Virus record (IMG/VR): IMGVR_UViG_3300033145_001237
Span: 1 to 47,127 of that record
Length of the DNA: 47,127 bases
DNA from: a virus
Strand: one strand, 5' to 3'
The notes beneath the pieces were generated by a model. It was not told where the DNA came from, did no database searches, and saw only the letters and a program-made list of their open reading frames with translations. Of the stretch, positions 15,075 through 35,226 are shown one piece after another. The stretch's first letter is position 1; each line of letters starts with the position of its first letter. Both the position numbers and the translations under genes were made by a program.

Positions 15075-15338
15075 TTATATTATCCTCTCTTTCCAATTCG
15101 TTATTTTGGTTTTTTGTTCTCGGTTAAAGTTAATTTTTGTATCGATTATATATTTATTATTAAATAATGACATACTATCACATTTTATACCTATTGATAT
15201 TAGAAATACAGCAAATAAAATACCTGATAAAAACACACTAAATAATTTATTATAAATAATTCCCTTTATTAATAAAAATATTGTTAATAATTCTATAATA
15301 ATTATAAAAAAAGAATCATTTGTTATTTGAAGTTTCAT
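15075..15338 (-). CDS. Membrane protein with C-terminal NWxxR tag
   Basis: 87 residues: two hydrophobic spans (FFIIIIELLTIFLLIKGIIY and LFSVFLSGILFAVFLISIGI), a short polar link, then the tail KITNWKERII. A case where the tag follows membrane segments and not an SH3-like barrel, so the tag is separable from that domain. The tail would face the cytosol or the lumen depending on topology, which I cannot decide. Confidence 0.7.
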   Translation of the reverse strand: MKLQITNDSFFIIIIELLTIFLLIKGIIYNKLFSVFLSGILFAVFLISIGIKCDSMSLFNNKYIIDTKINFNREQKTKITNWKERII

Positions 15339-15349
15339 TTAATACCTCC

Positions 15350-15772
15350 TTAGTTTATTTTCCCCATATAAAAATTACCCAACATATCCATCCTTGGTTC
15401 TTTTCCCATTAATTTATGATTAATAATTGTTTCAACATAAGGATGTTCGGCTGAGTCCCCATTTCCTAAACACATATTTATTGCTGTGTGTAAATCTTCG
15501 TGTATTAAAGTGTTTATTATTAGTTCTTCTGTCATTTGCTTATGTAAATAAATATATGTGTTAGTATCAAATTTTTCTATGTGTGAATAGTTAAATCCAC
15601 TCCATATAATTTTTGTATTATTAAATCCTAATTGCAACTTTTTTATATGTCTTTTTTTAGGACATTTAAAAAAATAATTTGTTTTTATTTCTTTAACCAT
15701 ACTATTATATAATCCCCATTTCTTTTCACTTTTTCTTATTTTTCTATTTAATAGAAAGTTTCTAAATATCAT
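15350..15772 (-). CDS. HExxH zinc metallopeptidase-like protein
   Basis: 140 residues. IINTLIHEDLHTAINMCLG holds HExxH, with possible later ligands in EHPYVETIINH. The N-terminus is basic (RKIRKSEKKWGLYN). Related in general layout, though not clearly in sequence, to the protein at 14753. Starts inside the tail codons of the tagged gene upstream. Confidence 0.65.
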   Translation of the reverse strand: MIFRNFLLNRKIRKSEKKWGLYNSMVKEIKTNYFFKCPKKRHIKKLQLGFNNTKIIWSGFNYSHIEKFDTNTYIYLHKQMTEELIINTLIHEDLHTAINMCLGNGDSAEHPYVETIINHKLMGKEPRMDMLGNFYMGKIN

Positions 15773-15960
15773 ATTATCCTTTTTTTCCAGTTATCTATTC
15801 TTACCTTTTTGACATCTTTAAAATAAACATAACCATCTAAACCATCACTACTAATTATAGAAATACCTTCATTATCACATTCAGTAACTTTTCTTTTTCC
15901 GTTCCACATCTTTCCAAATCCTGTTATTTCAACAATTTCTCCTACTTTATATTTAGACAT
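15769..15960 (-). CDS. SH3-like small protein with NWxxR tag
   Basis: 63 residues: MSKYKVGEIVEITGFGKMWN, a compact beta-rich barrel with GYVYFKDVKKV as the last strand, then RIDNWKKRII. Tail residue four is Asp-Asn in place of Thr-Asn. Its last codons overlap the next ATG. Confidence 0.75.
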   Translation of the reverse strand: MSKYKVGEIVEITGFGKMWNGKRKVTECDNEGISIISSDGLDGYVYFKDVKKVRIDNWKKRII

Positions 15961-15961
15961 T

Positions 15962-16258
15962 TTATAACCCAGGTTCTAATACCTCTTTTAATTTTGTTTT
16001 TGGGTTTTTTGTTAATAAATCTACCCATTTATTATGCCCTATAGTAGCATTTTCTTTACTTGTTCCATATTGTTCTACTATTACCCAACTTTTTCCTTCT
16101 GGTTCTATACCTGTTTCCCATTCTCCTGTATCTATTGCAAAACAGGTATCTATTATATGTGTTCCTATGTCTTTTCTTAATGCATCCTTTCTTGCATTTT
16201 CTATTGAGCCGTCAAATTGACCCATCATACTTTTCATAAGACTTGTTGTATTACTCAT
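15962..16258 (-). CDS. Unknown 98-residue protein
   Basis: From the ATG at 16258 (GAGGGAGAAATATAAA upstream; an ATG six codons earlier would put the ribosome site inside the gene). MSNTTSLMKSMMGQFDGSIE, then IDTCFAIDTGEWETGI, EGKSWVIVEQYGTSKENA and a Lys-rich end. The middle might be a small beta-rich nuclease-like or binding domain; not recognised. Confidence 0.55.
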   Translation of the reverse strand: MSNTTSLMKSMMGQFDGSIENARKDALRKDIGTHIIDTCFAIDTGEWETGIEPEGKSWVIVEQYGTSKENATIGHNKWVDLLTKNPKTKLKEVLEPGL

Positions 16259-16275
16259 TTTATATTTCTCCCTCA

Positions 16276-17057: not shown

Positions 17058-17058
17058 T

Positions 17059-19649: not shown

Positions 19650-19904
19650 TTACCTTATTCTTTCCTTCCAGTTTATAATTTTAGGATTAGTAATGTTTAT
19701 TACAGATATTTTACCTTCTCTTAATGCTTGTTCAAATTCATATATAGAACACTTATTATAAAAATCCTGGTCAATATCATCTAAGATACTTGTTTCACTT
19801 AATTTAAAGGTTATTAATTTATCAGTTATATTTATTATGACGGCACTTTCTATATAACCATAATCATCATTATTCCTTATTAAATCACCGACCTTATAGG
19901 TCAT
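19650..19904 (-). CDS. SH3-like small protein with NWxxR tag, last of its block
   Basis: 84 residues from the ATG at 19904 (GGAGAGAATAAA upstream; the frame stays open six codons further, but those codons are the tail of the previous gene). MTYKVGDLIRNNDDYGYIES, a barrel, a helix YEFEQALREGK, then KIINWKERIR. A promoter and an unrelated gene follow, so no downstream gene needs a ribosome site from the tail, yet the tail is intact. It differs from most copies in having Ile-Asn for Thr-Asn. Confidence 0.75.
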   Translation of the reverse strand: MTYKVGDLIRNNDDYGYIESAVIINITDKLITFKLSETSILDDIDQDFYNKCSIYEFEQALREGKISVINITNPKIINWKERIR

Positions 19905-20116
19905 TTTATTCTCTCCTTCCAATCAGTGATTTTATTATCACATTTTTTGAACCTAGACATAAGCCATCCTGAATGATTGAGTTTAGTCCTATCTAATCTT
20001 ATATTTACATATCCAGCCTCTACTTTTGTTATAGTTCCTTTTTCCCCCATTTGAAATGAGGAAAGTAGATTATCAATAACCTTTACATAGTCACCCACTT
20101 TAAGTTTGTGCTTCAT
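19901..20116 (-). CDS. SH3-like small protein with NWxxR tag
   Basis: 71 residues: MKHKLKVGDYVKVIDNLLSS, GEKGTITKVEAGYVNIRLDR as the central strands, then KITDWKERIK. The GTItkv...VnIrlD pattern is the usual core of an SH3/KOW barrel. Its tail codons TGG AAG GAG AGA overlap the next gene's ribosome site. Confidence 0.75.
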   Translation of the reverse strand: MKHKLKVGDYVKVIDNLLSSFQMGEKGTITKVEAGYVNIRLDRTKLNHSGWLMSRFKKCDNKITDWKERIK

Positions 20117-20355
20117 TTTATTCTTTGCCTCCAGTTAGTAATTTTTTTTGGAAAAACCTTATCAACTAATCTATATATAAAATACCAGTGGGATGCACTA
20201 TCTTTAAATTCATATTCTTTGCTATTAACTCCTCCAGTATGTATCTTTATTACCGTTACTATTTTTTCCATAAAAGTAGTGGGTAATGATATAAGGTCAA
20301 AATCATCCTCATTTTTGGTTAATTTAACCCTATCGCCTATTTTTATCTTAATCAT
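20113..20355 (-). CDS. SH3-like small protein with NWxxR tag
   Basis: 80 residues from the ATG at 20355 (TGGAGGCAACGATTAAG upstream). MIKIKIGDRVKLTKNEDDFD, then MEKIVTVIKIHTGGV and KDSASHWYFIYRLVDKVFPK, tail KITNWRQRIK. The barrel is larger than in the neighbours. Confidence 0.75.
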   Translation of the reverse strand: MIKIKIGDRVKLTKNEDDFDLISLPTTFMEKIVTVIKIHTGGVNSKEYEFKDSASHWYFIYRLVDKVFPKKITNWRQRIK

Positions 20356-20615
20356 CTTAATCGTTGCCTCCAATTCGTTATCTTAGCAGGATATAATTCT
20401 GCTCCCCACATATAACTTGATATACCTTCAAGTTTATATTGACTTTCTTCCTCTTTATCCTTTTTAATGTCTACTTCCTTAATAATTTTTATATGTGTTT
20501 TATTTAAGATAGCCAATTTTATATCACCGGGAGGAGTAGTATAATTTTTCTTTGTTCTTACATTTTCATAATAATGGGTAATTATTACTAAATCTCCGAC
20601 TTTAAAAAGTGTCAT
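20352..20615 (-). CDS. SH3-like small protein with NWxxR tag
   Basis: 87 residues: MTLFKVGDLVIITHYYENVR, a helix-poor beta region (THIKIIKEVDIKKDKEEESQ, MWGAELYPA), tail KITNWRQRLR. Tail codons differ from those of the neighbour by several synonymous changes (ACG, CGA). Confidence 0.75.
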   Translation of the reverse strand: MTLFKVGDLVIITHYYENVRTKKNYTTPPGDIKLAILNKTHIKIIKEVDIKKDKEEESQYKLEGISSYMWGAELYPAKITNWRQRLR

Positions 20616-20881
20616 ATTAATCTATCCCTCCAGTTAGTAATTTTAGCAAATTCAATTTCCTCATTACACAAATACCTAGTAGAGTTTTTATCTATTCTTA
20701 TTTCATAAGGAAATAATATATTATCACTTTTAATATATATAATTTTTACAGGTATTTTATTTTTAATCCTTATATATACTTCACTTTCATACATCTTTAA
20801 TTTATTCATAGGAATAAAATTGTTCTTTTTATCATCATAATATTTTTTTATAATAACCATATCTCCTATTTTATATGTCAT
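20612..20881 (-). CDS. SH3-like small protein with NWxxR tag
   Basis: 89 residues: MTYKIGDMVIIKKYYDDKKN, VYIRIKNKIPVKIIYIKSDN, NEEIEFAK, tail KITNWRDRLI. Resembles the next gene in its N-terminus, so probably a recent paralogue. ATG overlaps the stop of the Cas4-like nuclease gene, the first of this block. Confidence 0.75.
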   Translation of the reverse strand: MTYKIGDMVIIKKYYDDKKNNFIPMNKLKMYESEVYIRIKNKIPVKIIYIKSDNILFPYEIRIDKNSTRYLCNEEIEFAKITNWRDRLI

Positions 20882-22686: not shown

Positions 22687-22896
22687 TCATTTAATTCTTT
22701 CTTTCCAATTTAATATTTTTCCAGGAACGATAGTCATACGCCTCTTTTTTATTTCGTATTTAATAATATCTACATCAAAACTATCCTTGTGATTATCTTT
22801 AAACTTTAAATATATTTTATCATCCTGTATTAATATAATTTCAGCGCCGTTAAAATCAGGGTAATAAGTAGATTTAAGTTTGTCGCCTACTCTCAT
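22687..22896 (-). CDS. SH3-like small protein with NWxxR tag
   Basis: 69 residues: MRVGDKLKSTYYPDFNGAEI, DDKIYLKFKDNHKDSFDVDI, helix YEIKKRRMTIVPG, tail KILNWKERIK. The tail is written TGG AAA GAA AGA, with no GGAGG, and the next gene supplies its own ribosome site. So the peptide is kept without the Shine-Dalgarno. Confidence 0.78.
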   Translation of the reverse strand: MRVGDKLKSTYYPDFNGAEIILIQDDKIYLKFKDNHKDSFDVDIIKYEIKKRRMTIVPGKILNWKERIK

Positions 22897-23111
22897 TTAA
22901 ACCTCTTCATCCAGTTTGTTATTTTACTAGGAATATATTTTATGTTGCCTTTTTTTATTTCCTCACAAATATTCCAATCGGAATAATGGTCCTCATAATT
23001 ATTTTTTCTTTTAAAATATAAGGTATTGCCAAATATTCTTATAATTGTTGCACCGTCAAACCAGTCATACTTTTTACTTTTTATAATACCACCTACTGAA
23101 AAGGTTATCAT
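22893..23111 (-). CDS. SH3-like small protein with NWxxR tag
   Basis: 72 residues: MITFSVGGIIKSKKYDWFDG, NTLYFKRKNNYEDHYSDWNI, helix EEIKKGNIKYIPS, tail KITNWMKRFK. Close paralogue of 22687-22896 (same YDWFDGATI/YPDFNGAEI turn and EIKK..I...P helix). The tail has Met-Lys in the variable positions. Confidence 0.78.
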   Translation of the reverse strand: MITFSVGGIIKSKKYDWFDGATIIRIFGNTLYFKRKNNYEDHYSDWNICEEIKKGNIKYIPSKITNWMKRFK

Positions 23112-23323
23112 CTTAATCGCTCCTTCCAGTTAGTAATCTTTCTGGGAACCAATGATATACGGTTGCGTTTTATTTCTCTTTCTATGATGTCTATAGGATA
23201 GTCATCGTTTTTCCCATTTAATTCTTTTAAATATATTCTGTCGGAAGTTAGTTTTGTAATTTTAGCACCCTCAATTTGACTATATTCTTTACTTTTTAAT
23301 ATATCACCTACATAAAATTTCAT
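23108..23323 (-). CDS. SH3-like small protein with NWxxR tag
   Basis: 71 residues from the ATG at 23323. MKFYVGDILKSKEYSQIEGA, KITKLTSDRIYLKELNGKND, helix EREIKRNRISLVPR, tail KITNWKERLR. Third member of the close subgroup with 22687 and 22893, so this part of the array grew by tandem duplication. Confidence 0.78.
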   Translation of the reverse strand: MKFYVGDILKSKEYSQIEGAKITKLTSDRIYLKELNGKNDDYPIDIIEREIKRNRISLVPRKITNWKERLR

Positions 23324-23574
23324 TTGAACCGTTTCCTCCAATTAGTAATTTTAGCATATTCTAATTCTTCCTCATAAAAGTTATACTTTTGCATTGGCCT
23401 ATAAGTAACCGTATACTTATTCCTTTCAATTAATTCTTTTATTATGAGAGTTGTCCTATTTTCAATAAGTGTTCTAAACAAGGGGCGTATATTATCTAAG
23501 GATTCTTCTACTCCTCCAAAGCCAACGAATTTAACCCATCTAACTTTGTCTCCTACTTTGTATTTGTGTGTCAT
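23320..23574 (-). CDS. SH3-like small protein with NWxxR tag
   Basis: 84 residues: MTHKYKVGDKVRWVKFVGFG, a middle with RTLIENRTTLIIKELIERN, YNFYEEELEYAK, tail KITNWRKRFK. Paralogue of the next gene (shared VRWVKF/VRWARYIDF and EEELEY/EGELEF). Confidence 0.78.
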   Translation of the reverse strand: MTHKYKVGDKVRWVKFVGFGGVEESLDNIRPLFRTLIENRTTLIIKELIERNKYTVTYRPMQKYNFYEEELEYAKITNWRKRFK

Positions 23575-23822
23575 TTAATCCTCTCAGTCCAGTTTGTAAT
23601 TTTTAAAAACTCTAATTCTCCTTCAAAAAAGTATTGTGAAATTGTTACGCCTTTAGTAGTTACTTTATATTTATTATTCTTTTCAACGCTCTTAATTTTT
23701 AAGGGAGTCCTATTTTTTATCATTTTTTTAATCTGAGGATTAAGTTTTTGAATGGGTATTAATTCTTTTTTAAAATCTATATACCTTGCCCATCTAACTT
23801 CATCGCCCACTTTAAATTTCAT
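23571..23822 (-). CDS. SH3-like small protein with NWxxR tag
   Basis: 83 residues: MKFKVGDEVRWARYIDFKKE, KNRTPLKIKSVEKNNKYKVT, YFFEGELEFLK, tail KITNWTERIK. Pairs with 23320-23574. Its start overlaps the end of the phosphoesterase gene by 11 bases, so the enzyme and this pair are one unit. Confidence 0.78.
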   Translation of the reverse strand: MKFKVGDEVRWARYIDFKKELIPIQKLNPQIKKMIKNRTPLKIKSVEKNNKYKVTTKGVTISQYFFEGELEFLKITNWTERIK

Positions 23823-24303
23823 TTTTTCCCTCTCGTTTAAATTTATCTATATTAGCATTAATGTCCTCAATTGAAATTGGCGTGTAATCCCATACATCTA
23901 CTCCCACATTTACTAATATTTTATTTCCTGCTCTTTTTATTTTCCACTTTTTATGAATATGTCCTACTAAATTATATTCACTACAGGCATCTTGAGGTCT
24001 ATGGACTAAATGAAAGTATCTACCTCCAAGTCTTATTGTCATATCCTCTATAATTGAATTCCCACTATCGTGATTTCCTTTAATTAAAATAAGTGTTCCG
24101 TTAAGTATTTTTCTAAAATCATTTACTTTATGTTTAAAACATAAGTCTCCTAAATGAAACACAACATCCTCTGGTTTTACCCTTTCATTCCATTTCCTTA
24201 TTAGTTCCATATTCATATGTTTTACGGATTTAAAAGGGCGATGAGTATAGCGGATTATGTTTGTATGAAAAAAATGTGTGTCTCCGGTAAAATAATATTT
24301 CAT
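23812..24303 (-). CDS. Calcineurin-like metallophosphoesterase
   Basis: 163 residues with the metal-site motifs in order: YFTGDTHFFH near the start, VVFHLGDLCF, LIKGNHDSGN, and GHIHKKWKIKRAGNKILVNV. Size and motifs fit the small phage phosphoesterase group that hydrolyses phosphodiesters or cyclic nucleotides. Untagged, but inside the tagged-gene array. Could counter nucleotide-signal defences; inference only. Confidence 0.85.
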   Translation of the reverse strand: MKYYFTGDTHFFHTNIIRYTHRPFKSVKHMNMELIRKWNERVKPEDVVFHLGDLCFKHKVNDFRKILNGTLILIKGNHDSGNSIIEDMTIRLGGRYFHLVHRPQDACSEYNLVGHIHKKWKIKRAGNKILVNVGVDVWDYTPISIEDINANIDKFKREGKNEI

Positions 24304-24500
24304 TTTATCCTATCTCTCCAATTAGTTATTTTAACAAATTCTAAATCCTGTTCGTGATAGTAATTTTTATATCCGGAATCCCATTTAACACGAAGCCAAC
24401 CAGGGTCATTACTTACAATCATAGTTCCCGGAACTTTACTTTGTTTATAGAAGCGTGAGGATTTTTTTAATTTAACTCTATCTCCCTTTTTAAATTTCAT
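24300..24500 (-). CDS. SH3-like small protein with NWxxR tag (MIB/HERC2-like pattern)
   Basis: 66 residues: MKFKKGDRVKLKKSSRFYKQ, then GTMIVSNDPGWLRVKWDSGY and NYYHEQDLEFV, tail KITNWRDRIK. GT-x(6-8)-VxWD-x-Y-x-DL is the SH3-like core also seen in MIB/HERC2 domains. Very similar to 34479-34679, 10 kb away, so one subfamily spans both halves of the array. Confidence 0.8.
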   Translation of the reverse strand: MKFKKGDRVKLKKSSRFYKQSKVPGTMIVSNDPGWLRVKWDSGYKNYYHEQDLEFVKITNWRDRIK

Positions 24501-25389: not shown

Positions 25390-25524
25390 TTAATACCTCC
25401 AACTCATATTCCATCCTTTTACACTGCCTATACAAATCCAACCTTTACTTATTAATTTGTCTTTTACATTATTACTATATGTATGGTAAAATTCATTGCC
25501 CTTTACTAATAACTTGGCTATCAT
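25390..25524 (-). CDS. Unknown 44-residue protein after the E1 gene
   Basis: MIAKLLVKGNEFYHTYSNNV ... KLISKGWICIGSVKGWNMSWRY. The ATG overlaps the E1 stop and the stop lies just before the tagged zinc-ribbon start with its own GGAGGT. Small alpha/beta; role unknown. Its position makes it a possible accessory of the conjugation module. Confidence 0.55.
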   Translation of the reverse strand: MIAKLLVKGNEFYHTYSNNVKDKLISKGWICIGSVKGWNMSWRY

Positions 25525-26219
25525 TTTGAACCGCCGCCACTCTGCCTTACATTTAGGATATGAATCCCCGTATTAGGCGTTTTAGCATTACCAATATACT
25601 TACGGTCATAATCATCTCCTTTAATATAGTTAATAATATTCATAACTATCATTCCTGCTATTTGAACATTAACAGGAGCACTTGCTTTTTCGCCACACGG
25701 TAGGTCACTTTCTTTTCCTGTAGATAAAGTCTTTTCATACTCCTCAATGTCCTTTTTTTCATCACAATTTACAAGATAATGCCTCATATCAAATCTACCA
25801 ATCCTACCATCTACAAATAGAATAGGAAAGTTTTTTAGTTTTTCAAATACTAATTTTCTCCCTTCAAAGGAATCAAAAAAACAGCAATAAAAAGTATCAC
25901 TTTCAGCAGAAATTTCAGTATCCTTATCTACAAATCCTCGATGTGTTATCAATTCTATACCCGCAGATTTCTTAATCATATCGGACATAGCTATTACTTT
26001 TTCTTTACCTATATCATCAAAGTCAAATGCCTGTGCAGCAATATTTTCTTCCTCTACTTTGTCCATATCATAGACCTCTATATTTTTAAATCCTGCTTTC
26101 GCTGCGGTCTTTACAAAATGACTACCAATACTTCCTACTCCAAATACTTTTAAAGTGTATTGATTAATCTTATCATACGGAACTAATTTTGCCTGTCTAC
26201 TTAGGTTTAAATTATTCAT
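25521..26219 (-). CDS. E1-like (ThiF/MoeB) ubiquitin-activating enzyme
   Basis: 232 residues. The nucleotide-binding loop VFGVGSIGS is at 25-33, followed by IEVYDMDKVEEENI (49-60) with the two metal/ATP acidic residues, IGKEKV and SDLPCGEK with the candidate catalytic Cys at 175. Length fits a minimal adenylation domain without the CxxC zinc pairs of ThiF. It should adenylate the Ubl C-terminus and pass it to the E2. AAGGAGGCAAACA precedes the ATG. Followed by a small gene and then tagged array genes. Confidence 0.85.
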   Translation of the reverse strand: MNNLNLSRQAKLVPYDKINQYTLKVFGVGSIGSHFVKTAAKAGFKNIEVYDMDKVEEENIAAQAFDFDDIGKEKVIAMSDMIKKSAGIELITHRGFVDKDTEISAESDTFYCCFFDSFEGRKLVFEKLKNFPILFVDGRIGRFDMRHYLVNCDEKKDIEEYEKTLSTGKESDLPCGEKASAPVNVQIAGMIVMNIINYIKGDDYDRKYIGNAKTPNTGIHILNVRQSGGGSK

Positions 26220-26495: not shown

Positions 26496-27599
26496 TTACT
26501 TATTTTCTTTATCCCTCCATATCTGTCCAATTACTACCTCTAATTTGGTATCATAAACAGTTCCTTCTGTGTTGTCCTCATTCCATTCTATTTTACCACC
26601 GTCGTCTATTGATTTAAATAATTTTGAAACTACATCTGGGGAATCAATTATATTTATTGTATCTCCGTAATCTTCTCCCTCTTCTTCCTCTAATCGTTCA
26701 TCTAAAATGGCCTCATAAACTGAAAACATTCCTATCAAAGTTTCTTTCAATAAGTTATAACTCTTTTTCTTGGGCTGTAATTTTATCTTTTGATACTTAT
26801 CCTCTTTTGTTATCTGCCATTTCCCTACTATTCCATTTAACTTTCCTGTCTTTTTAAGAGCATTTACAAGTAATTCCTTAAATGAAAGTCCTGTTAATAT
26901 AGTAGCTTGTCCATGTTCAAACTTAATACTTACTCTGTCCTTTTCATCCACTTCCCAAGCAGTTGAATAGTCATCTACCGTTTTAACTGATTTTTGAGTT
27001 GTATAATTTCTACCTGCAAGACTACCACGGCTCCAATCTATAACTTCAACATTTGGTGTTTCAATGATAGCGTCCTTAATAATTTGGTCGCAAATCCTTT
27101 CTATCTTTTTTTCATCAGGGTCTTCAAAGGTTACATCAATATCTTTATCTAAAATTGTAGCCCTTATTGGTTTTCTTATATCTATTCTTGCCTCATCATT
27201 CCAAGTATCATCTGTTCCTATCGCAGTTTGATAAAAGATAAAGAAGTTCCTATTAGCATCCTTATCCATAAAGGCATTAAATGTATTTTCCTCATCTGTT
27301 TCTGAATGTGCTGAATTGCCAGGATGTCTATGCCAATACCAAGCTATATCCTTTAGTTCCGCCAATCCATATTTTTTTACCAAACTTCCCCACATTGCAG
27401 GTGTAAAATGAACTGTTGCTCCTGTTACATTTTGTTGTGGAAATAGTAGCTTATATACATAAAAATACTTCTCCCCATTTTCTTGTCTTATGCTTACCTT
27501 TCCAACAGCACCTATTTCTGTATCAAGATTATTAGTTAGGTGTGTTATTATTTTATGGACTTCAGGAGCTAATACAACCCTTGCTTTATAGTCGGTCAT
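26496..27599 (-). CDS. JAB/JAMM-domain metallopeptidase, candidate deubiquitinase
   Basis: 367 residues. JAMM signature: Glu28 in DTEIGAVG, then WYWHRHPGNSAHSETD with His90, His92, Ser99 and Asp102, exactly HxHP-x6-S-x2-D. The domain covers about the first 135 residues; the remaining 230 are unlike JAB and unrecognised, with an acidic stretch DERLEEEEGEDYGDT. In bacterial and archaeal ubiquitin-like operons such a peptidase trims the Ubl precursor or removes it from targets. Lies between the E2-like and E1 genes. Possible readthrough extension at its end. Confidence 0.88.
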   Translation of the reverse strand: MTDYKARVVLAPEVHKIITHLTNNLDTEIGAVGKVSIRQENGEKYFYVYKLLFPQQNVTGATVHFTPAMWGSLVKKYGLAELKDIAWYWHRHPGNSAHSETDEENTFNAFMDKDANRNFFIFYQTAIGTDDTWNDEARIDIRKPIRATILDKDIDVTFEDPDEKKIERICDQIIKDAIIETPNVEVIDWSRGSLAGRNYTTQKSVKTVDDYSTAWEVDEKDRVSIKFEHGQATILTGLSFKELLVNALKKTGKLNGIVGKWQITKEDKYQKIKLQPKKKSYNLLKETLIGMFSVYEAILDERLEEEEGEDYGDTINIIDSPDVVSKLFKSIDDGGKIEWNEDNTEGTVYDTKLEVVIGQIWRDKENK

Positions 27600-27783: not shown

Positions 27784-29343
27784 TTATAGTTTTACTCCTT
27801 TATATTTTTTAATGTTATCATTATAGACAGATTCCTTTTTTAACTTAACTTGTTCTCCTGTCTTTATTCTTGCTGGGTCGTTGATTTTAATTCTCTTTCC
27901 TTTCTCGTCAAATACTGGTAATCCTTTCTTTAATCTATCATCATAGGTAGTCCATACTTTAATATATGCTCCTGAATTTCTATAGGTCTTAATCCAAAAC
28001 CACAACATTTTCGCTAATTCCGAAAACTTATATTCCGTTAATAGTTGATATATCTTTCTATGCCCATCTCCGTCTCCAAAGCAAGGACTTGAATTTTGTC
28101 CATTAGTTGATTCTCCTCCATGCGGGTGCGGATTTGTTCCCTTAATAGGGCAATTTCCATATACTCTAAACTCACCTGGACTAATTTTAAATCCAATTTC
28201 ACCCATATAAACATATCTTTTACCAACTCCTTTATCACTATCATTCCTTTTCATATTTGGTATTGGTATAGATGTTGCCTTATATAAAATATTTATTACT
28301 CCTGAGCCAATTTCTACATTCTTAATAAAGGGTAGTAATTTTATTTTATCTATTTCTTTAAACAATTTCTCTCCTGATGAATTCATTAATGATTTAATAA
28401 ATTCCAAGGATATACTATCAGAATGTATGTTTTCTACACACGTCCTTATACTTCTCCCATAATCAGTTATTCGTGTTTCATTACTTTTTATATTACTTTT
28501 TAGGCTTTTCTCTTTTTCCTTGGACTTCTTTGCGAAAGCTGATACTAATAATCTCCTTTGTATATCCGTTATATCATTTTTCTTAATAGTTATCTTTTTA
28601 AATAGTTTAAACAACTCCTTTAATGGAAGTGGAATATCCTTAGTAAATACACCTATCTTATTAAATGCGAACGGATTAAAAAATAAATGGATAAAATTTC
28701 TTTCAGGGAAGTATGTTCCTATCATTGTTTCGTCTATCTTTAAATCAACCTTCTTTTCTTTTTGCAATAAAGTAAAGAATGAAGGAGAAGCCAGTGTAAA
28801 GGACTCTTTATCGGATTCTACCATAGGATATTTCTTTAATAAAAATGTTTTAAGTCTTGAATAGAAACCACTTGAAGGTGATTCATATGACCCACCAGGA
28901 CGACATTCTATTCCTAATAAAACATTTTTTGAACTAAAACTTTCTTCCTCTGTTAAAGGTGCTTTAACTTTTATTTCTCCTATTCCAAATTTTCTTAATT
29001 CGGTTTCTATCTTTTTCAAAAGTATTTTATTATAAGGTAATCCATTAAAAGCACTTTCGGTATAAAACATATTTTTAAATACGGATTTAGTTAAATCACT
29101 TGGTTTTAATTTATTCTTTTCCGAATCAGTTACTAATGCTAATAACCTATTGAATTCCTTAATTAATCTTGTTCCTTTGATATCTAAATTAACATCATCA
29201 AAGGTTATTGTTCCTTCTACTTTCTTATTTGTAAATTTTAAAGTAGGTATTTTCTCGTTTTTGCCTGACCAAACTCCTTTATATAAAGTTTTCAATTCCT
29301 GACAAGCTATTTGAATTTGGTCGCCTTCTAATTTAAGTTTCAT
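27784..29343 (-). CDS. E2-like conjugating-enzyme protein with long N-terminal extension
   Basis: 519 residues. The C-terminal third carries the prokaryotic E2 pattern: EFRVYGNCPIKGTNPHPHGG, then NSSPCFGDGDGHRKIYQLL with a candidate catalytic Cys at 421 (the CxG position of the E2 motif), and helix LAKMLWFWIKTYRNSGAY. The conserved HPH before the active site is intact. The first 340 residues do not resemble a known domain to me; they are rich in Lys and may bind the Ubl or a substrate. AAGGAGGCAAAAAT precedes the ATG. Flanked by the Ubl and JAB genes. Confidence 0.72.
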   Translation of the reverse strand: MKLKLEGDQIQIACQELKTLYKGVWSGKNEKIPTLKFTNKKVEGTITFDDVNLDIKGTRLIKEFNRLLALVTDSEKNKLKPSDLTKSVFKNMFYTESAFNGLPYNKILLKKIETELRKFGIGEIKVKAPLTEEESFSSKNVLLGIECRPGGSYESPSSGFYSRLKTFLLKKYPMVESDKESFTLASPSFFTLLQKEKKVDLKIDETMIGTYFPERNFIHLFFNPFAFNKIGVFTKDIPLPLKELFKLFKKITIKKNDITDIQRRLLVSAFAKKSKEKEKSLKSNIKSNETRITDYGRSIRTCVENIHSDSISLEFIKSLMNSSGEKLFKEIDKIKLLPFIKNVEIGSGVINILYKATSIPIPNMKRNDSDKGVGKRYVYMGEIGFKISPGEFRVYGNCPIKGTNPHPHGGESTNGQNSSPCFGDGDGHRKIYQLLTEYKFSELAKMLWFWIKTYRNSGAYIKVWTTYDDRLKKGLPVFDEKGKRIKINDPARIKTGEQVKLKKESVYNDNIKKYKGVKL

Positions 29344-29441: not shown

Positions 29442-29804
29442 TTAAGCAGATTTTATTTCAGGTGCTATAGCGTAGGTCTCATTATGGACTAATAAGTCAT
29501 TAAGGTCAACTGAGTTTCCTGTGCTTTGTGCTACAATACCTTCTTTACCCTCGTCAAAACTATATTCACTCTGTTCAAGTAGGTCTTCAACTGTTGCTCC
29601 TTTGTTCAAGATGCAGGTCTTTGTTCCATTAACACCTACTCTTCCTATTGTAGCTGTTACACTTCCTCTTGGAACTGCTGTTTTCCTTACTCTACCTGTT
29701 GGTTGCTTGTTGTATCTTTTTGTAACGGCAGCTTTTTCTCCGCCAAAAAGTTCGTCGAAGTCCTCGCCATACATTTCCTGTGCTATGCTATTTTTGGATT
29801 TCAT
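29442..29804 (-). CDS. Ubiquitin-like beta-grasp protein
   Basis: 120 residues. The last 75 follow the beta-grasp plan: SVTATIGRVGVNGTKTCILN, then GATVEDLLEQSEYSFDEGK, GNSVDLNDLLVHNETYAIAP. The GaTVedLL motif and the final L...d.y.IaP strand are typical. It ends EIKSA, without the usual Gly-Gly, so either processing exposes a different end or it acts unprocessed. The first 45 residues are a charged tail with MYGEDFDELFGG. ACGGAGGCGTGTAA precedes the ATG. First gene of the conjugation module. Confidence 0.72.
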   Translation of the reverse strand: MKSKNSIAQEMYGEDFDELFGGEKAAVTKRYNKQPTGRVRKTAVPRGSVTATIGRVGVNGTKTCILNKGATVEDLLEQSEYSFDEGKEGIVAQSTGNSVDLNDLLVHNETYAIAPEIKSA

Positions 29805-30433: not shown

Positions 30434-30537
30434 TTATTTTTCCTCCATAAATTTAAGTCTTTTTTTGATATTATAAGATTGTTTAATCTCTTTATAAAGC
30501 TATCGTTTTTGTAAGGTGTGAACTTCAAGGAATTCAT
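30430..30537 (-). CDS. Small basic 35-residue protein
   Basis: MNSLKFTPYKNDSFIKRLNN LIISKKD then LNLWRKNK. Starts within the tail codons of the tagged gene upstream (AAGAGGATACA ribosome site) and ends on the ATG of the next gene, so it is a coupled link in the operon. No family. Confidence 0.5.
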   Translation of the reverse strand: MNSLKFTPYKNDSFIKRLNNLIISKKDLNLWRKNK

Positions 30538-30797
30538 TGTATCCTCTTTTTCCAATTCTCTATTTTTTTCCTTTTTATAACCTTTAAATCCCTTTCATCA
30601 ACGGTGCAATTATTTGAGGAATTAATATCTTTAACACATATATTTCTATTTCCCACAGAATCATACCCATCATCATCAAAAACATTTATTGCCGTTACAA
30701 CAAGTGTAATCCCTTTAAAGCAATACCTACATTTAGTATTTCCACATCCTCCATACGTTCCTACTACGATAACTTCATCGCCTACTTGGACTTTCAT
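30534..30797 (-). CDS. SH3-like small protein with CxxC and NWxxR tag
   Basis: 87 residues from the ATG at 30797. MKVQVGDEVIVVGTYGGCGN, then TKCRYCFKGITLVVTAINVF, a long loop and CTVDERDLKVIK, tail KIENWKKRIQ. Three Cys in GGCGNTKCRYC could bind zinc inside the barrel. Confidence 0.75.
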   Translation of the reverse strand: MKVQVGDEVIVVGTYGGCGNTKCRYCFKGITLVVTAINVFDDDGYDSVGNRNICVKDINSSNNCTVDERDLKVIKRKKIENWKKRIQ

Positions 30798-31024
30798 ATT
30801 ATTCTTTCCCTCCAATTTGTTATTTTAATATTAACATGAATAAAGGCATTTGTATTCTCTATGAAAGCAACACTCCAGGCATCAACAGGATGGGCATCTT
30901 TTATACTATAATAGTTAGGCCAACTTTTAGGTTTAATAATTTCAATTATATCCCCCCTTTTAAACCCACAAAACTTCTCGTTTAATACTTTTAAATGTGT
31001 TCCTACTTTATATTTTTTTGTCAT
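30794..31024 (-). CDS. SH3-like small protein with NWxxR tag
   Basis: 76 residues: MTKKYKVGTHLKVLNEKFCG, FKRGDIIEIIKPKSWPNYYS, DAWSVAFIENTNAFIHV, tail KITNWRERII. GDIIEI then a strand pair is the usual barrel. Tail codons supply GGAGGGAAAG to the next gene. Confidence 0.75.
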   Translation of the reverse strand: MTKKYKVGTHLKVLNEKFCGFKRGDIIEIIKPKSWPNYYSIKDAHPVDAWSVAFIENTNAFIHVNIKITNWRERII

Positions 31025-31272
31025 TTTATCCTTTCCCTCCAGTTTGTAATCTTAAGGTTAACCAATTCAAACAAATATAAATCTCCACCTAGTTCATCAT
31101 CTATACACGCCGTATTATCCTCTATATCGGGATTTGTTAAATTGGTATAACAAAAAATACTTCCGCCATCAACTATTCCCGTTATTAAATATATATTGTC
31201 CTTTATTAAGTCATACCTAGTTACTAATGCCTTAATTTTTACACCTACTTTTATATCTTTTTTAGTTATCAT
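31021..31272 (-). CDS. SH3-like small protein with NWxxR tag
   Basis: 83 residues from the ATG at 31272, which overlaps the primase stop; an ATG four codons earlier lies inside the primase gene. MITKKDIKVGVKIKALVTRY, IYLITGIVDGGSIFCYTNL, LGGDLYLFELVN, tail KITNWRERIK. Neither start has a strong ribosome site, so it probably depends on coupling. Confidence 0.72.
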   Translation of the reverse strand: MITKKDIKVGVKIKALVTRYDLIKDNIYLITGIVDGGSIFCYTNLTNPDIEDNTACIDDELGGDLYLFELVNLKITNWRERIK

Positions 31273-31828
31273 TTTCAAACCCATCTATTTTTAATATCTT
31301 GCTAAATCTACCTGATTTTAAATGTTTTCCAAAAGGAATTTTAACGAGATTCCCATATTTTCGTGTCTCCGATAATGTGGTTTGCTTGGGAAATACTTCG
31401 TGCTTATTTAAATCCGGTCTATTTATTCTTGCCTTCACTACTAATTGAGCAAATTCTGCCGACACTCTTGGGAAAAAGAATATCCATATGTGGTATCCTC
31501 TTCTACCGGAGTCTTCCAACATTCTGGGAAAATCTATAAAGCAATTATAAATAATAAGTGCCTCAGGATATATTTTCCATACCTCGTGTTCATCAGTATC
31601 AATATCCACACAAGCCCACTTAACTTTATTATCAGGAGTTAAAGCATAAGTTCCTAATGTTATTTCTCCTTTCAAATGCTTCTTTATTAAATCTATCGTT
31701 AAAGGATGCTTTTGAATAAAGTATGCCCCACTTGGTTGTTGAACCGAATACACATCCTTTCTGTTTATAAATAACTCAAATATTTGTTCGGCACTTAATT
31801 TTGAACCGACGTGACTCAGCCTTATCAT
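31262..31828 (-). CDS. Archaeo-eukaryotic primase (small AEP, TOTE/LigD-like)
   Basis: 188 residues. GEITLGTYALTPDNKVKWAC then VDIDTDEHEVW gives the first metal aspartates (75 and 77). SGRRGYHIWIFFFPRVSAEF has the conserved His (113). KHEVFPKQTTLSETRKYGNL and KIPFGKHLKSGRF form the rest of the family signature. This is the compact AEP of TOTE/LigD type. It lacks the C-terminal helicase partner in this frame. It would prime replication or repair. Embedded in the tagged-gene array. Confidence 0.85.
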   Translation of the reverse strand: MIRLSHVGSKLSAEQIFELFINRKDVYSVQQPSGAYFIQKHPLTIDLIKKHLKGEITLGTYALTPDNKVKWACVDIDTDEHEVWKIYPEALIIYNCFIDFPRMLEDSGRRGYHIWIFFFPRVSAEFAQLVVKARINRPDLNKHEVFPKQTTLSETRKYGNLVKIPFGKHLKSGRFSKILKIDGFENDN

Positions 31829-32049
31829 TTTATTCTCTCCTTCCAGTTTGTAATTTTTATAGGTTCAAAATAGTTAGGTATATAATCACCATTACTTTGC
31901 CCTTGTGCATCTCCTATCCATTTTACATATAAATACGTATCTCTTTTTTTAAAATCCTTTGTAACTATTGCTTTTGAACCTATATCTGCCGCCATATTCT
32001 TATTTTTAATTAATCTAACTTCATCTCCTTTTTTAAATAAATATCTCAT
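31825..32049 (-). CDS. SH3-like small protein with NWxxR tag
   Basis: 74 residues: MRYLFKKGDEVRLIKNKNMA, GSKAIVTKDFKKRDTYLYVK WIGDAQG as central strands, NYFEPI, tail KITNWKERIK. Translation is coupled to the primase gene that follows. Confidence 0.75.
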   Translation of the reverse strand: MRYLFKKGDEVRLIKNKNMAADIGSKAIVTKDFKKRDTYLYVKWIGDAQGQSNGDYIPNYFEPIKITNWKERIK

Positions 32050-32324
32050 TTTATTCTCTCCTTCCAGTTTTCAATTTTTAAACTATATAATTTACCATTC
32101 CGTAATAATGAGGCACAAAAGTATTTTTTATATTTATTATAATCAGAAATCCATAGTGGTTTCCCTTTATATTCTTTTCCTCCTCCTTGTTGCCCATCGT
32201 CCCTCAATATGTGTAATCTTGTTCCTTCTTTGGTAATAAAAATAATTTTACCTGTGTATGAGGAAAATAATAATGTTCCTTTTACTCTTATTCCTATGTT
32301 AGGTGTTTCTCTTATTAGTTCCAT
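32046..32324 (-). CDS. SH3-like small protein with NWxxR tag
   Basis: 92 residues: MELIRETPNIGIRVKGTLLF, YTGKIIFITKEGTRLHILRD DGQQGGGKEYKGKPLWISD, then KKYFCASLLRNG, tail KIENWKERIK. The RDDGQxGxGxxxxGKxxW segment recurs in 34261-34482, so these two are a subfamily. Confidence 0.77.
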   Translation of the reverse strand: MELIRETPNIGIRVKGTLLFSSYTGKIIFITKEGTRLHILRDDGQQGGGKEYKGKPLWISDYNKYKKYFCASLLRNGKLYSLKIENWKERIK

Positions 32325-32325
32325 T

Positions 32326-32910
32326 TTAAAACACCGGTAAAAATGATGCCTCTCTTTCGTGTTTAATTCCCTGTTGTGCTATAAAAGTAACTATCTTATT
32401 TAGGTCATCAAAGTATTCTTTACCTTTGTAATTAATAGTTGCCTTATTACAAATAGGACAACTCTTTACTTGAAAAGTTCCTTCTGATGTTCTAAAAGGT
32501 CTGCTTGTTATCCATATATGCTTGTGCAGTCCGAAGTTGTCATAGGCATCCTTTTCTTTTATAATTTGTTTCCACATTTTTTTTGCCTCCTTATTTAATT
32601 CTTGTGTTATTTTTAGGATAAAATAACCATAGTTTTTGTTATTTAATACCTCTTTTTCAAAATCAAATTCATCAATAATATCCTCTGTTAAATCTTCTCC
32701 TTCACTATCTATATATAAATCCTTTATCTGTATTCTCGGAATTTTATATAAAGTAAGGCATTCTCCACATATATGGGTATCATAGTCATTACTAAATTCA
32801 TCCGTCTTATAAGTCTTTGGGTATTCTTTAAAAACAATCCCATTCTTACAAGTTGGACATATTGTTTCTGCCTTTGGTTTCTTTGTTTCATCTAATTTAT
32901 ACCTTTTCAT
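32326..32910 (-). CDS. Zinc-finger protein, untagged
   Basis: 194 residues from the ATG at 32910. ETICPTCKNGIVFKEYP, then THICGECLTLYKI make a first zinc site; a second knuckle FQVKSCPICNKATINYKG lies near the end. Acidic helical middle. No NWxxR tail, although array genes flank it on both sides. Function unknown. Confidence 0.65.
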   Translation of the reverse strand: MKRYKLDETKKPKAETICPTCKNGIVFKEYPKTYKTDEFSNDYDTHICGECLTLYKIPRIQIKDLYIDSEGEDLTEDIIDEFDFEKEVLNNKNYGYFILKITQELNKEAKKMWKQIIKEKDAYDNFGLHKHIWITSRPFRTSEGTFQVKSCPICNKATINYKGKEYFDDLNKIVTFIAQQGIKHEREASFLPVF

Positions 32911-33122
32911 TTTATTCTTTGCCTCCAATTTGTTATTTTTCTTTCATACTTTTTGAACCGTTTAGCATACCAATAACGATTAGGATTTGTATGAATTTTA
33001 TCCCATTTAATTATAAAGTGTGTGTATGGGTCAATTTCTTTTATTGTTCCAACATCTCCTATATCTATTTTATCTGTAATCCCCCTAACATCAATAACTA
33101 TTACACTATCTCCTACTTTCAT
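32907..33122 (-). CDS. SH3-like small protein with NWxxR tag
   Basis: 71 residues from the ATG at 33122. MKVGDSVIVIDVRGITDKID, GDVGTIKEIDPYTHFIIKWD, WYAKRFKKYE, tail KITNWRQRIK. Good GTIkeI...IIkWD barrel core. Confidence 0.77.
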   Translation of the reverse strand: MKVGDSVIVIDVRGITDKIDIGDVGTIKEIDPYTHFIIKWDKIHTNPNRYWYAKRFKKYERKITNWRQRIK

Positions 33123-33592
33123 TTTATCCTCTCCTTCCAATTATCTATCCTTGATAACTTTAACTCATCCTTTGAATAATATTCAGTATAATTATCTACC
33201 CACGTAACTACATAAGGTCGGCGGCACTTGAAGTTCCTAATTTCTACTATGTTTCCTCGTTTTCTACTTTCTCTTTCGTCCCCTATTTTATCAACTATGT
33301 CTCCTACATTAAATTTCCTAAATTTATTTCTTAATAAAATAAAGGGATTTTTAATTTCAAATTCGAACCCTTGAATTTTATATAATTCACAATTTTCATC
33401 CCTCAGTACATCTTTCCTTACAATAACGGTTAACATAAATATAGTGAATATAATTCCTATCCAAAAAAACATAAATGCTAATGTAAATATACTAAGGGCA
33501 TTTAATCCACCCATAAAAAATAAGATTAAAAGCCATAAAAGACTTATTTCAGATATTGTTATTCCCCTTAAATATAATTTAACCGTTGTCAT
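33119..33592 (-). CDS. Membrane plus SH3-like protein with NWxxR tag
   Basis: 157 residues in three parts: two membrane spans (LLWLLILFFMGGLNALSIFT and FMFFWIGIIFTIFMLTVIV), a linker, an SH3-like barrel (KFNVGDIVDKIGDERESRKR, GNIVEIRNFK, YVVTWVDNYTEYYSKDEL) and the tail RIDNWKERIK. It shows the barrel-plus-tag unit placed at a membrane, so the tail is likely on the cytosolic side with the barrel. Confidence 0.78.
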   Translation of the reverse strand: MTTVKLYLRGITISEISLLWLLILFFMGGLNALSIFTLAFMFFWIGIIFTIFMLTVIVRKDVLRDENCELYKIQGFEFEIKNPFILLRNKFRKFNVGDIVDKIGDERESRKRGNIVEIRNFKCRRPYVVTWVDNYTEYYSKDELKLSRIDNWKERIK

Positions 33593-33798
33593 TTTATCCT
33601 CTCCCTCCAGTTGATTATTTTTGCAGGTAATAAATCTGTATCATCATAAAATAATTCTTTCTTATCACTATCCCATTTAACTAATACATCCCATCCATCA
33701 TTCATAATTCTTATTATTGTTCCTGTCCCACTATTTTGGTTAGCAAAAAACGATTTCTTATTAAGCCTAATCTTATCTCCTATTTCAAACTTACTCAT
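33589..33798 (-). CDS. SH3-like small protein with NWxxR tag (MIB/HERC2-like pattern)
   Basis: 69 residues from the ATG at 33798. MSKFEIGDKIRLNKKSFFAN, GTGTIIRIMNDGWDVLVKWD, LFYDDTDLLPA, tail KIINWRERIK. Same GT-x-VKWD-x-Y-x-DL layout as 24300 and 34479. Confidence 0.78.
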   Translation of the reverse strand: MSKFEIGDKIRLNKKSFFANQNSGTGTIIRIMNDGWDVLVKWDSDKKELFYDDTDLLPAKIINWRERIK

Positions 33799-34028
33799 TT
33801 TATTCTCTCCTTCCAATCAGTTATCTTACCCGAAACAAGTTTTACTTCCTTATCTTTAACTATTATATTAGTTATTGCCCGAATACTACACCAATCTCGT
33901 TCCTGCCTTTCACGATTAGCAGGTTTAAATTCAATTCTATCTCCTATAATTTTTGTTATTACGGCATTATCTAAAAATTCATATCCGTCATTTTGCTTTA
34001 TAAATTTATCTCCTACTCTGAATTTCAT
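33795..34028 (-). CDS. SH3-like small protein with NWxxR tag
   Basis: 77 residues: MKFRVGDKFIKQNDGYEFLD, NAVITKIIGDRIEFKPANRE, helix CSIRAITNIIVKDKEVKLV, tail KITDWKERIK. The N-terminus (DGYEFLDNAVITKI) is like 19650-19904 (DYGYIESAVIINI), another pair across the array. Confidence 0.77.
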   Translation of the reverse strand: MKFRVGDKFIKQNDGYEFLDNAVITKIIGDRIEFKPANRERQERDWCSIRAITNIIVKDKEVKLVSGKITDWKERIK

Positions 34029-34264
34029 TTTATCACCTTAAATGTTTTTAATATTTGTGTTCTTAATTCATCAGGCAGTTTCTTTCGGATTTGTAATGGA
34101 ACTACCGAAAGAAACGAACCTAATATATTTGTTGCTTGGGTGGGATTTAGTCGCATTTGTTTTTCAAGGTCGGGATATGCTTTTTGAATTTCTATAATAA
34201 TAAAATGAGGCATTTTTATAATAGCAAAATCTCTTTCCTGATGTGTCATACCGCTTGGTTTCAT
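34025..34264 (-). CDS. Untagged helical protein inside the array
   Basis: 79 residues: MKPSGMTHQERDFAIIKMPH, FIIIEIQKAYPDLEKQMRLN, SFLSVVPLQIRKKLPDELRT, ending LKTFKVIK. No NWxxR tail and no barrel. Helical; function unknown. Coupled to genes on both sides. Confidence 0.6.
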   Translation of the reverse strand: MKPSGMTHQERDFAIIKMPHFIIIEIQKAYPDLEKQMRLNPTQATNILGSFLSVVPLQIRKKLPDELRTQILKTFKVIK

Positions 34265-34482
34265 TTTATTCTCTCCTTCCAGTTTTCTATCCTATCTAAT
34301 ATAGCATCCTCTGAAAAGGTATGCCAAGTGTATTTCCCATTTACTTTTATTCCTGAGCCAGTTTGCCCATCATCTCTAATAATATCTATGAACGGCCTAT
34401 TTATTAATACTATTTCTCCTGAAAAATTTAATTTCCCATCATAATATTTTTTTATTCTGTCACCTACTTTGAATTTAGTCAT
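34261..34482 (-). CDS. SH3-like small protein with NWxxR tag
   Basis: 73 residues from the ATG at 34482. MTKFKVGDRIKKYYDGKLNF, SGEIVLINRPFIDIIRDDGQ TGSGIKVNGKYTW, SEDAILD, tail RIENWKERIK. Shares RDDGQ-x-G-x-G with 32046-32324. Confidence 0.78.
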   Translation of the reverse strand: MTKFKVGDRIKKYYDGKLNFSGEIVLINRPFIDIIRDDGQTGSGIKVNGKYTWHTFSEDAILDRIENWKERIK

Positions 34483-34679
34483 CTTATCCTCTCCCTCCAA
34501 TTTTCAATTTTAGCATATTTTAAATCCTTATCCTCATAATAGTTATGTGATTCGTCATCCCAATTAACTTTATAACAATCCCCATCATCTTTAACTACGG
34601 TTCCCCGAACATTACTTTGGTAAGCATATTGAGAATCCTTTCTTAATTTAACTCTGTTCCCAACTTTAAATTTACTCAT
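34479..34679 (-). CDS. SH3-like small protein with NWxxR tag (MIB/HERC2-like pattern)
   Basis: 66 residues from the ATG at 34679. MSKFKVGNRVKLRKDSQYAY, GTVVKDDGDCYKVNWDDESH NYYEDKDLKYA, tail KIENWRERIR. Nearest relative is 24300-24500 (NYYHEQDLEFV). Subfamily members are thus on both sides of the Ubl module. Confidence 0.8.
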   Translation of the reverse strand: MSKFKVGNRVKLRKDSQYAYQSNVRGTVVKDDGDCYKVNWDDESHNYYEDKDLKYAKIENWRERIR

Positions 34680-34954
34680 TTGAACCGTTTCCTCCAATTT
34701 GTTATTTTAGCCTCTCTTAATTCATCATTACAAAACCATTCAAACGGTTCGTTTCTATCAGGCATTTGAACCGTATAAATAAATTTATGCCCTTTTTCTG
34801 ATATATCAAAATCTTCCTGTAATACCTTAACTATTGTTCCTATTTTTTTATTTTCAATATAAGGGTCCATACTGGTATCATACTCACATTCTCCTGTGAG
34901 ATAATTTAGGCACTTTACTACTATTATTTTATCTCCTACTTTAAATTTACTCAT
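34676..34954 (-). CDS. SH3-like small protein with NWxxR tag
   Basis: 92 residues: MSKFKVGDKIIVVKCLNYLT, IGTIVKVLQEDFDISEKGHK, FIYTVQMPDRNEPFEWFCND ELREA, tail KITNWRKRFK. GTIVKV core and a longer final loop than most. Confidence 0.77.
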   Translation of the reverse strand: MSKFKVGDKIIVVKCLNYLTGECEYDTSMDPYIENKKIGTIVKVLQEDFDISEKGHKFIYTVQMPDRNEPFEWFCNDELREAKITNWRKRFK

Positions 34955-35226
34955 TTTATACGCTCCTTCCAGTTAGTTATTTTATATGATACAAAGCCTA
35001 TTTTTTTTGCCGACAGTTCGTTTAAACAAGTCATTCCACATTGTTTAATACCTTCATTTCCAACAACCTTTTGTTTATGAATAGCTATTGCGTCCTCTTT
35101 GCTATTTTTAAAAAATCCCCAATAAGACGCCATACTTGGATATTGAGATTTTTCTATAAAAGATACAACGGCAAATCGTGAACTTCCTATATATGTTATA
35201 ATGTCTCCTAATTTTATATCACCCAT
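34951..35226 (-). CDS. SH3-like small protein with NWxxR tag, first of its block
   Basis: 91 residues: MGDIKLGDIITYIGSSRFAV, VSFIEKSQYPSMASYWGFFK, helix NSKEDAIAIHKQKVVGNEG, TCLNELSAKKIGFVSY, tail KITNWKERIK. First tagged gene in the transcript direction. The 47 bases upstream hold no promoter, so it is probably read from the operon starting near 36.4 kb. Confidence 0.75.
   Translation of the reverse strand: MGDIKLGDIITYIGSSRFAVVSFIEKSQYPSMASYWGFFKNSKEDAIAIHKQKVVGNEGIKQCGMTCLNELSAKKIGFVSYKITNWKERIK

Follow-up and report, generated by a model that had tools for sequence, protein, structure and literature searches.

The stretch of DNA analysed here, referred to as the window, is the whole of a stored virus record (IMG/VR record IMGVR_UViG_3300033145_001237; 47,127 bases, 30% GC), and it encodes 29 small proteins that share a C-terminal decapeptide, hereafter called the tag (Table 1). 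All 29 tagged genes lie on the minus strand, their C-termini were read directly, and every tail fits [KR]-I-x-[ND]-W-x-x-R-[ILF]-x, with Ile(-9), Trp(-6) and Arg(-3) invariant (29/29). The initial annotation had described the same family with a last residue restricted to [KRI]; its existence and its count stand, whereas the exact pattern holds for 28 of the 29, the exception being the gene at 30534, whose tail KIENWKKRIQ ends in Q. The positions that it had given as gene starts are actually the low-coordinate, stop-codon ends of these minus-strand genes, and several open reading frames (ORFs) listed with a TTG start really begin at an ATG that overlaps the preceding stop (AAAATGA). Gene calls were mechanical, and all records considered in this work are metagenomic and possibly incomplete. 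The replication genes of the window suggest an archaeal host, since they include an archaeal-type RadA (best PDB matches to archaeal-type Rad51/RadA, E=5e-94) and a PCNA-type clamp (NCBIfam E=2.4e-9; PDB E=1e-5); a terminase gene is also present.

The bodies in front of the tag are varied, as had been proposed, and comprise SH3-like barrels according to AlphaFold, a zinc ribbon (25086; A2L_zn_ribbon E=1.4e-4, just under the Pfam cut-off) and proteins with membrane spans (15075 and 33119). The AlphaFold model of the 24300 protein is a five-stranded barrel with a predicted local distance difference test (pLDDT) score of 85-94, followed by a tail at 59 with a short helix at 61-65. This barrel resembles small phage SH3-like proteins, some of them annotated as DUF4314 (Foldseek, best E=3e-5), and Pfam DUF4314 matches for window bodies reach E=0.002-0.012. 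The bodies are ordinary phage modules and the tag is the unusual part, appended to them and, judging from AlphaFold confidence, flexible. A length of 160 amino acids is exceeded by no tagged window protein and by 10 of 25 untagged proteins encoded in that region (Fisher p=1.4e-4), and these longer untagged neighbours include most of the recognisable enzymes.

Selection on the peptide and a second code in its last codons

The C-terminal motif occurred in none of 200 shuffles of the window proteins; inside window proteins, and in nine virus records examined as controls, it was likewise absent. At the DNA level, the core AARATHWSNRAYTGG has 19 occurrences in the window, all on the minus strand and each corresponding to one listed in-frame tail, and none in the reversed control. 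Codon-position entropy in the tails is 0.89 bits at the third position vs 0.42 and 0.44 at the first and second. Codon identity between equal residues matches the genome expectation for I(-9) (0.47 vs 0.47) and T(-8) (0.40 vs 0.40) and lies under it for N(-7) (0.48 vs 0.66) and R(-3) (0.33 vs 0.41), Arg(-3) being encoded by AGG, AGA, CGA, CGG and CGT. Saturation at synonymous sites is largely alike in three of the relatives described below (G001, G014 and G016). Since synonymous sites are saturated, the tail peptide is, on this codon evidence, held by amino-acid selection and not by recently copied DNA, and the recent tandem copying that the initial annotation had named as a possible source of the shared end is excluded.

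The last five codons carry additional information. In 26 of the 29 window tails the next ATG lies at most 4 nt from the stop, mostly as AAAATGA, the codons at -5/-4 are skewed to AGG (12 of 13 Arg), GAG (13 of 17 Glu) and AAG (9 of 14 Lys), and the last two tail codons to ATA AAA. By their composition these five codons are dual-coding and also provide the following gene with its Shine-Dalgarno and overlapping start, which explains part of the [KR]-[EKQ]-R-I-K composition and not K-I-T-N-W. When only ATG ORFs of at least 40 amino acids were counted as downstream starts, at least eight tagged genes had no following gene start, for instance 19650 in the window, 12045 and 97290 in G001, and 89474 and 90093 in G014. 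Moreover, the Shine-Dalgarno of G001 is often located downstream of the motif (TNWKKELGG, GGAGGG), which stands 0-9 residues before the stop.

A repeat of comparable placement is the start-associated sequence (SAS) of cluster K mycobacteriophages, a repeated element with AGGAG that lies immediately before many non-structural genes (PMC3203893). Most window tails resemble it in having a Shine-Dalgarno directly before a start, a likeness confined to the last five codons; SAS is a 13-mer at the DNA/RNA level, whereas the upstream half of the tail is amino-acid constrained with free synonymous sites. A SAS-type repeat was rejected, because nucleotide conservation independent of frame was not found and 19/19 core matches are in-frame tails.

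Tags of related viruses

Relatives were collected through the terminase or the conserved replication protein W8065 (8065-9213), and all are uncultivated. G001 (IMGVR_UViG_3300033145_001087, 111 kb, terminase identity 66%) has the tag [IV]xNW[KR]xE[ILVM] plus 0-9 residues on 20 proteins; G010 (3300021471_000006, 109 kb, terminase 57%) has [KR][IV]x[NS]W[KR]xx[ILV] on about 13; G016 (3300035698_007355, 97 kb, terminase 42%) has W[KR]E[RHN]Y on 11-13; and G014 (3300031952_000008, 94 kb, terminase 35%) has L[MF]DLx[IVF], very unlike the W-centred ones, on 20-21. In narrower form the four tags read [IV]TNW[KR]KE[ILVM], K[IV]x[NS]W[KR]xx[IL], [ST]W[KR]ERY and LMDL[KVE][IVF], each on 10-21 small proteins. 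The shorter fragments G012, G013 and G015 have few tags (IDWRGELQ, INWKEELD; LTWKEKLGE; PSWKKRYEK). Overlap among the W-centred forms aside, the tag of each virus is almost missing from the others, and no shared tails were found in the relatives G003-G009, which were recognised by ThiF only (25-29% identity).

When bodies were compared without their tails, both partners were tagged in 32/32 cross-virus homolog pairs (20/20 distinct subjects), although the tagged share of the whole protein set of these viruses is about 10%. Relatives of these genes do keep a tail, a point on which the initial annotation had made its family depend, and by these comparisons the tag goes with the virus and not with the protein. 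The zinc ribbon, for instance, ends RINNWKQRLK in the window, RKNWKNIIEGNEKS in G010, VNWKETYLRRRKE in G016 and TLMSLEVKDDS in G014, and the 24300 barrel ends KITNWRDRIK in the window, RITNWKKELGG in G001 and PQKLMDLVF in G014. Similarly, 24497 has KITNWRERII in the window, KITNWKQELEE in G001 and KVTSWRKLIE in G010; 23571 ends KITNWTERIK and its G010 homolog KIKNWKLKLEGRL; 30534 ends KIENWKKRIQ and its G016 homolog PTNWRERYANK; and G001_104921 ends KITNWKKEMEVR and its G014 homolog GKMNLMDLVIK. A homolog of 30534 was also recognised by eye in G014 (L080:1527-1784, that is 79527-79784), with the variant KKLFDLEIK, LFDL standing for LMDL.

Occasionally the tag is placed at the N-terminus. In G016, L086:5958-6176 begins with MWKEHY followed by a barrel (KVGDKV...), and L086:6152-6481 has MNWKERY from Met8. 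In G010, L056:8055 (ORF L056:8034-8309) carries MNKINWKKQLEL... behind a GGAGG Shine-Dalgarno, and in G015 the single-span membrane protein L081:2518-2901 carries MNNQTWKRRYEGPP... with a K/R-rich N-terminal side, a placement that, by a rule of thumb applied to predicted start codons, would keep this tag cytoplasmic. Most tagged proteins are soluble barrels that do not span a membrane; the few that do mostly have the tag on the inner side, as judged from charge, again by rule of thumb only. A C-terminal signal for secretion or surface anchoring was rejected on these grounds, with carriers mostly soluble and the tags of membrane carriers mostly inside.

Outside its own record, the exact tail pattern of the window had no match in the viral contig collection. 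Against 84,980 genomes it gave four single matches, none credible as a tagged gene, and therefore there is no evidence for cellular use of the window's tag. The G001-type pattern had multiple matches in G001 only, lone matches elsewhere being chance-like. Among sequenced phages, only the terminase of the window was matched, weakly (26%), while W8065, the putative E2, the zinc ribbon and one tagged G001 protein had no match; homologs of W8065 were also missing from the genome contig collection.

Table 1. Tagged genes of the window and genes of the adjacent ubiquitin-like cassette
Coordinates	Strand	Feature	Tail	Basis or remark
15075..15338	-	tagged, two predicted membrane spans	KITNWKERII	C-terminus read; span prediction
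15769..15960	-	tagged, small barrel-type	RIDNWKKRII	C-terminus read
19650..19904	-	tagged, barrel-type	KIINWKERIR	TAA end, no gene start just downstream
19901..20116	-	tagged, barrel-type	KITDWKERIK	
20113..20355	-	tagged, barrel-type	KITNWRQRIK	
20352..20615	-	tagged, barrel-type	KITNWRQRLR	
20612..20881	-	tagged, barrel-type	KITNWRDRLI	
22687..22896	-	tagged, barrel-type	KILNWKERIK	downstream gene with own separate Shine-Dalgarno
22893..23111	-	tagged, barrel-type	KITNWMKRFK	
23108..23323	-	tagged, barrel-type	KITNWKERLR	
23320..23574	-	tagged, barrel-type	KITNWRKRFK	
23571..23822	-	tagged, barrel-type	KITNWTERIK	
24300..24500	-	tagged, barrel	KITNWRDRIK	AlphaFold model
24497..24823	-	tagged	KITNWRERII	
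24823..25089	-	tagged	KITNWRKRIK	
25086..25388	-	tagged, zinc ribbon	RINNWKQRLK	A2L_zn_ribbon match
30534..30797	-	tagged, CxxC pairs	KIENWKKRIQ	
30794..31024	-	tagged	KITNWRERII	
31021..31284	-	tagged	KITNWRERIK	
31825..32049	-	tagged, barrel-type	KITNWKERIK	
32046..32324	-	tagged	KIENWKERIK	
32907..33122	-	tagged, barrel-type	KITNWRQRIK	
33119..33592	-	tagged, membrane plus barrel	RIDNWKERIK	C-terminus read; span prediction
33589..33798	-	tagged, barrel-type	KIINWRERIK	
33795..34028	-	tagged, barrel-type	KITDWKERIK	
34261..34482	-	tagged, barrel-type	RIENWKERIK	
34479..34679	-	tagged, barrel-type	KIENWRERIR	
34676..34954	-	tagged, barrel-type	KITNWRKRFK	
34951..35226	-	tagged	KITNWKERIK	
25521..26219	-	E1-like ThiF protein		Pfam ThiF E=1e-20
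26496..27599	-	JAB/MPN-like protein		by eye, no library match; conserved in 4 relatives
27784..29343	-	putative E2-like protein		conserved HxH...C motif only
29442..29804	-	putative ubiquitin-like protein ending EIKSA		by eye, no library match

Proposed docking on a common partner

Because the peptide is amino-acid-selected, sits on unrelated modules, can stand at either end and changes in concert, we propose, with a probability of about two in three, that the decapeptide serves many small modules as a short linear motif for docking to one intracellular partner. The tag would be added through a flexible end to small non-enzymatic modules, namely SH3-like barrels, a zinc ribbon and membrane proteins, and all of them would bind one common partner inside the cell. 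Within each virus the whole tagged set would be keyed to that virus's partner, and a shift in the recognition surface would shift the tag on all carriers together, which may have produced the series TNW[KR]xR, TNW[KR]KE, [NS]W[KR]xx[IL] and SWKERY, with LMDL in the most distant virus. The broader suggestion of the initial annotation, that a whole set of viral proteins shares a tag for sorting, docking or degradation, is supported by the tails kept in relatives and by the exclusion of recent copying; among the three functions we tentatively favour docking. These findings suggest a labelling system, not described before, through which many viral proteins are connected to one and the same partner. 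One peptide would mark a functional set of up to 29 small proteins that are usually treated singly as orphans, and each relative has a peptide of its own by which its set stands out, even when the bodies have nothing in common. This makes the tag a ready bait for the shared partner, making the function of dozens of proteins testable in one experiment, and its replacement across a whole gene set would represent an unusual concerted co-evolution of a short motif.

Regarding the identity of the partner, the window encodes a ubiquitin-like cassette (Table 1) whose genes are kept in G001, G010, G014 and G016. Significant library matches were obtained for the E1 only, and they include weak PADLOC E1-E2 and PRTRC ThiF. 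The cassette lies at 25.5-29.8 kb in the window, 5.7-9.7 kb in G001, 60.4-64.7 kb in G010, 65.5-69.3 kb in G016 and 82.5-88.1 kb in G014. Since tagged genes flank or interleave it in 5/5 large records, this conjugation machinery (E1, JAB-like protein, putative E2 and ubiquitin-like protein) is the best guess for the partner, a tentative one with the odds against it; the odds are similar for the replication/transcription complex and for a host hub protein. From their gene neighbourhood alone, the small modules could act as adaptors choosing the cassette's targets. F-box and SOCS-box adaptors of ubiquitin ligases combine varied recognition domains with one common docking element, a domain of 40-50 residues. 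Here too varied modules carry one shared element beside ubiquitin-like machinery, although this element is a peptide of about 6-10 residues and its interaction is only proposed. It is conceivable, though doubtful, that the tag plugs about 30 interchangeable recognition modules into a viral ubiquitin-like ligase, each bringing a different target from host or virus; such an adaptor system would be a prokaryotic-virus counterpart of the F-box/SOCS-box adaptors, with plug and socket co-evolving in each virus. A role of the tag as conjugation acceptor (SUMO-like W-K-x-E) was rejected, given that K and R are equally frequent directly after W and that G014 keeps no lysine.

Other candidates were sought among genes present in 4/4 W-tag viruses (the window, G001, G010 and G016) and not found in the LMDL virus G014. 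These are PCNA, the archaeo-eukaryotic primase (AEP)-like 31262, the SWIM-like zinc protein 16836, and 13571, 16276 and 43247. One such contrast gives too many candidates to choose from, and G014 is possibly incomplete. The AEP gene encodes a stand-alone primase domain (31262-31828, minus strand; AEP-TOTE E=3.6e-23) inside the tag cluster, a location shared by its counterparts in G001, G010 and G016.

Several points weigh against docking on one partner. The presence/absence contrast among the five viruses pinned down no partner, and for the putative E2 no structural match was obtained with AlphaFold and Foldseek. The closeness of tagged genes to the cassette may merely reflect a shared early region. 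Counting the window, four of the five large records have W-centred tags, which may represent one drifting motif, and the sole full replacement, LMDL, is known from one virus (G014). For overlapping genes, a role in cis in translation coupling may also exist.

Alternative explanations and analogies

Among the alternatives, a degradation tag read by a protease of host or virus, or by the ubiquitin-like system, which would make the carriers short-lived early proteins, is unlikely. The small size and early type of the proteins, the terminal flexible peptide and the cassette beside tagged genes in 5/5 viruses would all agree with it; nevertheless, a basic motif centred on W differs from the hydrophobic LAA type of ssrA degrons (in the window, R-[ILF] is followed by a final K, R, I or Q), the viruses have no invariant lysine position in common, and turnover would need to be favoured for zinc-ribbon, membrane and barrel proteins alike.

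We also consider it improbable that the tail is a virion-loading peptide that binds capsid or scaffold, so that the small proteins are carried in the particle, much as targeting peptides are bound within the HK97-fold shell of encapsulins. In encapsulins, dedicated cargo is recruited by short, usually C-terminal targeting peptides bound by a shared shell (PMC7925596). The likeness lies in a terminal peptide common to otherwise different proteins, and tag and shell would be expected to co-diverge. Encapsulin systems have few dedicated cargo proteins, whereas here 10-29 small proteins per virus are tagged, membrane proteins among them, and no tag-linked shell gene is found. Furthermore, the tagged genes are in the replication/early region and not among structural genes, the main tag clusters stand apart from the terminase in the window and its relatives, and the tag may be N-terminal.

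A signal acting in cis, in which the nascent peptide or the termination context would cause a pause that promotes re-initiation on the next gene, would fit a C-terminal, amino-acid-conserved tail in mostly tightly overlapping operons that differs among viruses. We regard it as very improbable, given that the distance to the stop varies (0-9 residues in G001), that some tagged genes have no downstream start, that the tag can be N-terminal, that untagged homologs were not found, and that enzyme genes in the same overlapping operons, such as 20878 and 23812, are untagged. Scarcely tenable is the view that the conserved end TGGARGGAGAGRATAAAATGA is a mere ribosome-binding or translation-coupling element with the peptide as its by-product. 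It does hold a Shine-Dalgarno and an overlapping ATG, with the 26 tails and the codon skew in its favour, but KITNW lies upstream of the Shine-Dalgarno with free synonymous sites, the order is often reversed in G001, at least eight tagged genes have no start to serve, N-terminal tags exist and G014 has LMDL instead. Ribosome binding is thus refuted as sole cause and stays as a second function of the last five codons. Finally, tails left by recent tandem duplication or as a seam of cassette recombination, with no amino-acid function, can be virtually discounted, for although many bodies are related barrels in tandem arrays, the tail is kept on many bodies diverged past detection, occurs on unrelated folds, is replaced on homologs and has the saturated synonymous sites that refute this origin.

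No described viral tag family turned up in the literature searched, the coverage of which was partial, in agreement with the initial annotation, which knew of no family of this kind. For import into the phage nucleus of Chimalliviridae by PicA, a conserved signal sequence was not found, and recognition relies on a surface (PMC11087766). This import resembles the tag in the phage-specific choice of a set of viral proteins and differs from it in that an explicit terminal peptide is present here. Sliding-clamp tails (the PCNA-interacting protein (PIP) box, the bacterial clamp motif and the gp45-binding C-termini of T4) connect many proteins to one hub through a short terminal motif. The window virus does encode PCNA, and the LMDL/LFDL of G014 loosely resembles clamp motifs; however, the W-centred tags have no QxxLxxFF, QL[SD]LF or -LF/-FF end, LMDL is a partial fit only, and G014, which carries it, has no recognisable PCNA. 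Encapsulin peptides and clamp-binding tails may serve as the nearest working analogies of the docking motif, with identity to the tag not implied.

A second set of shared C-termini in the window ends in -LF (SESLF, ENLF, KKDLF, KPLF, IPLF and KDDLF) and is found on minus-strand genes at 8065-9213, 9215-9448, 37005-37592, 39626-39805, 39864-40037, 40686-41069 and 41560-41961, some of the carriers being replication proteins; G001 has ends of the form DFSF or DFTF. Given the viral PCNA, the -LF ends may serve to bind the sliding clamp. In G010, the terminase ORF has 1,353 amino acids (L055:1990-6051; G010 40990-45051), of which residues 661-940 align with residues 236-514, the C-terminal part, of the window protein, which suggests large in-frame insertions, possibly an intein. 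Lastly, a C5 cytosine methyltransferase of the window (5553-6489, minus strand) is apparently split across two overlapping frames, 5983-6489 with MFSGIGGF and 5553-6443 with RLTPIECERLQGFPDNW, and the split appears to be a frameshift or a sequence error.

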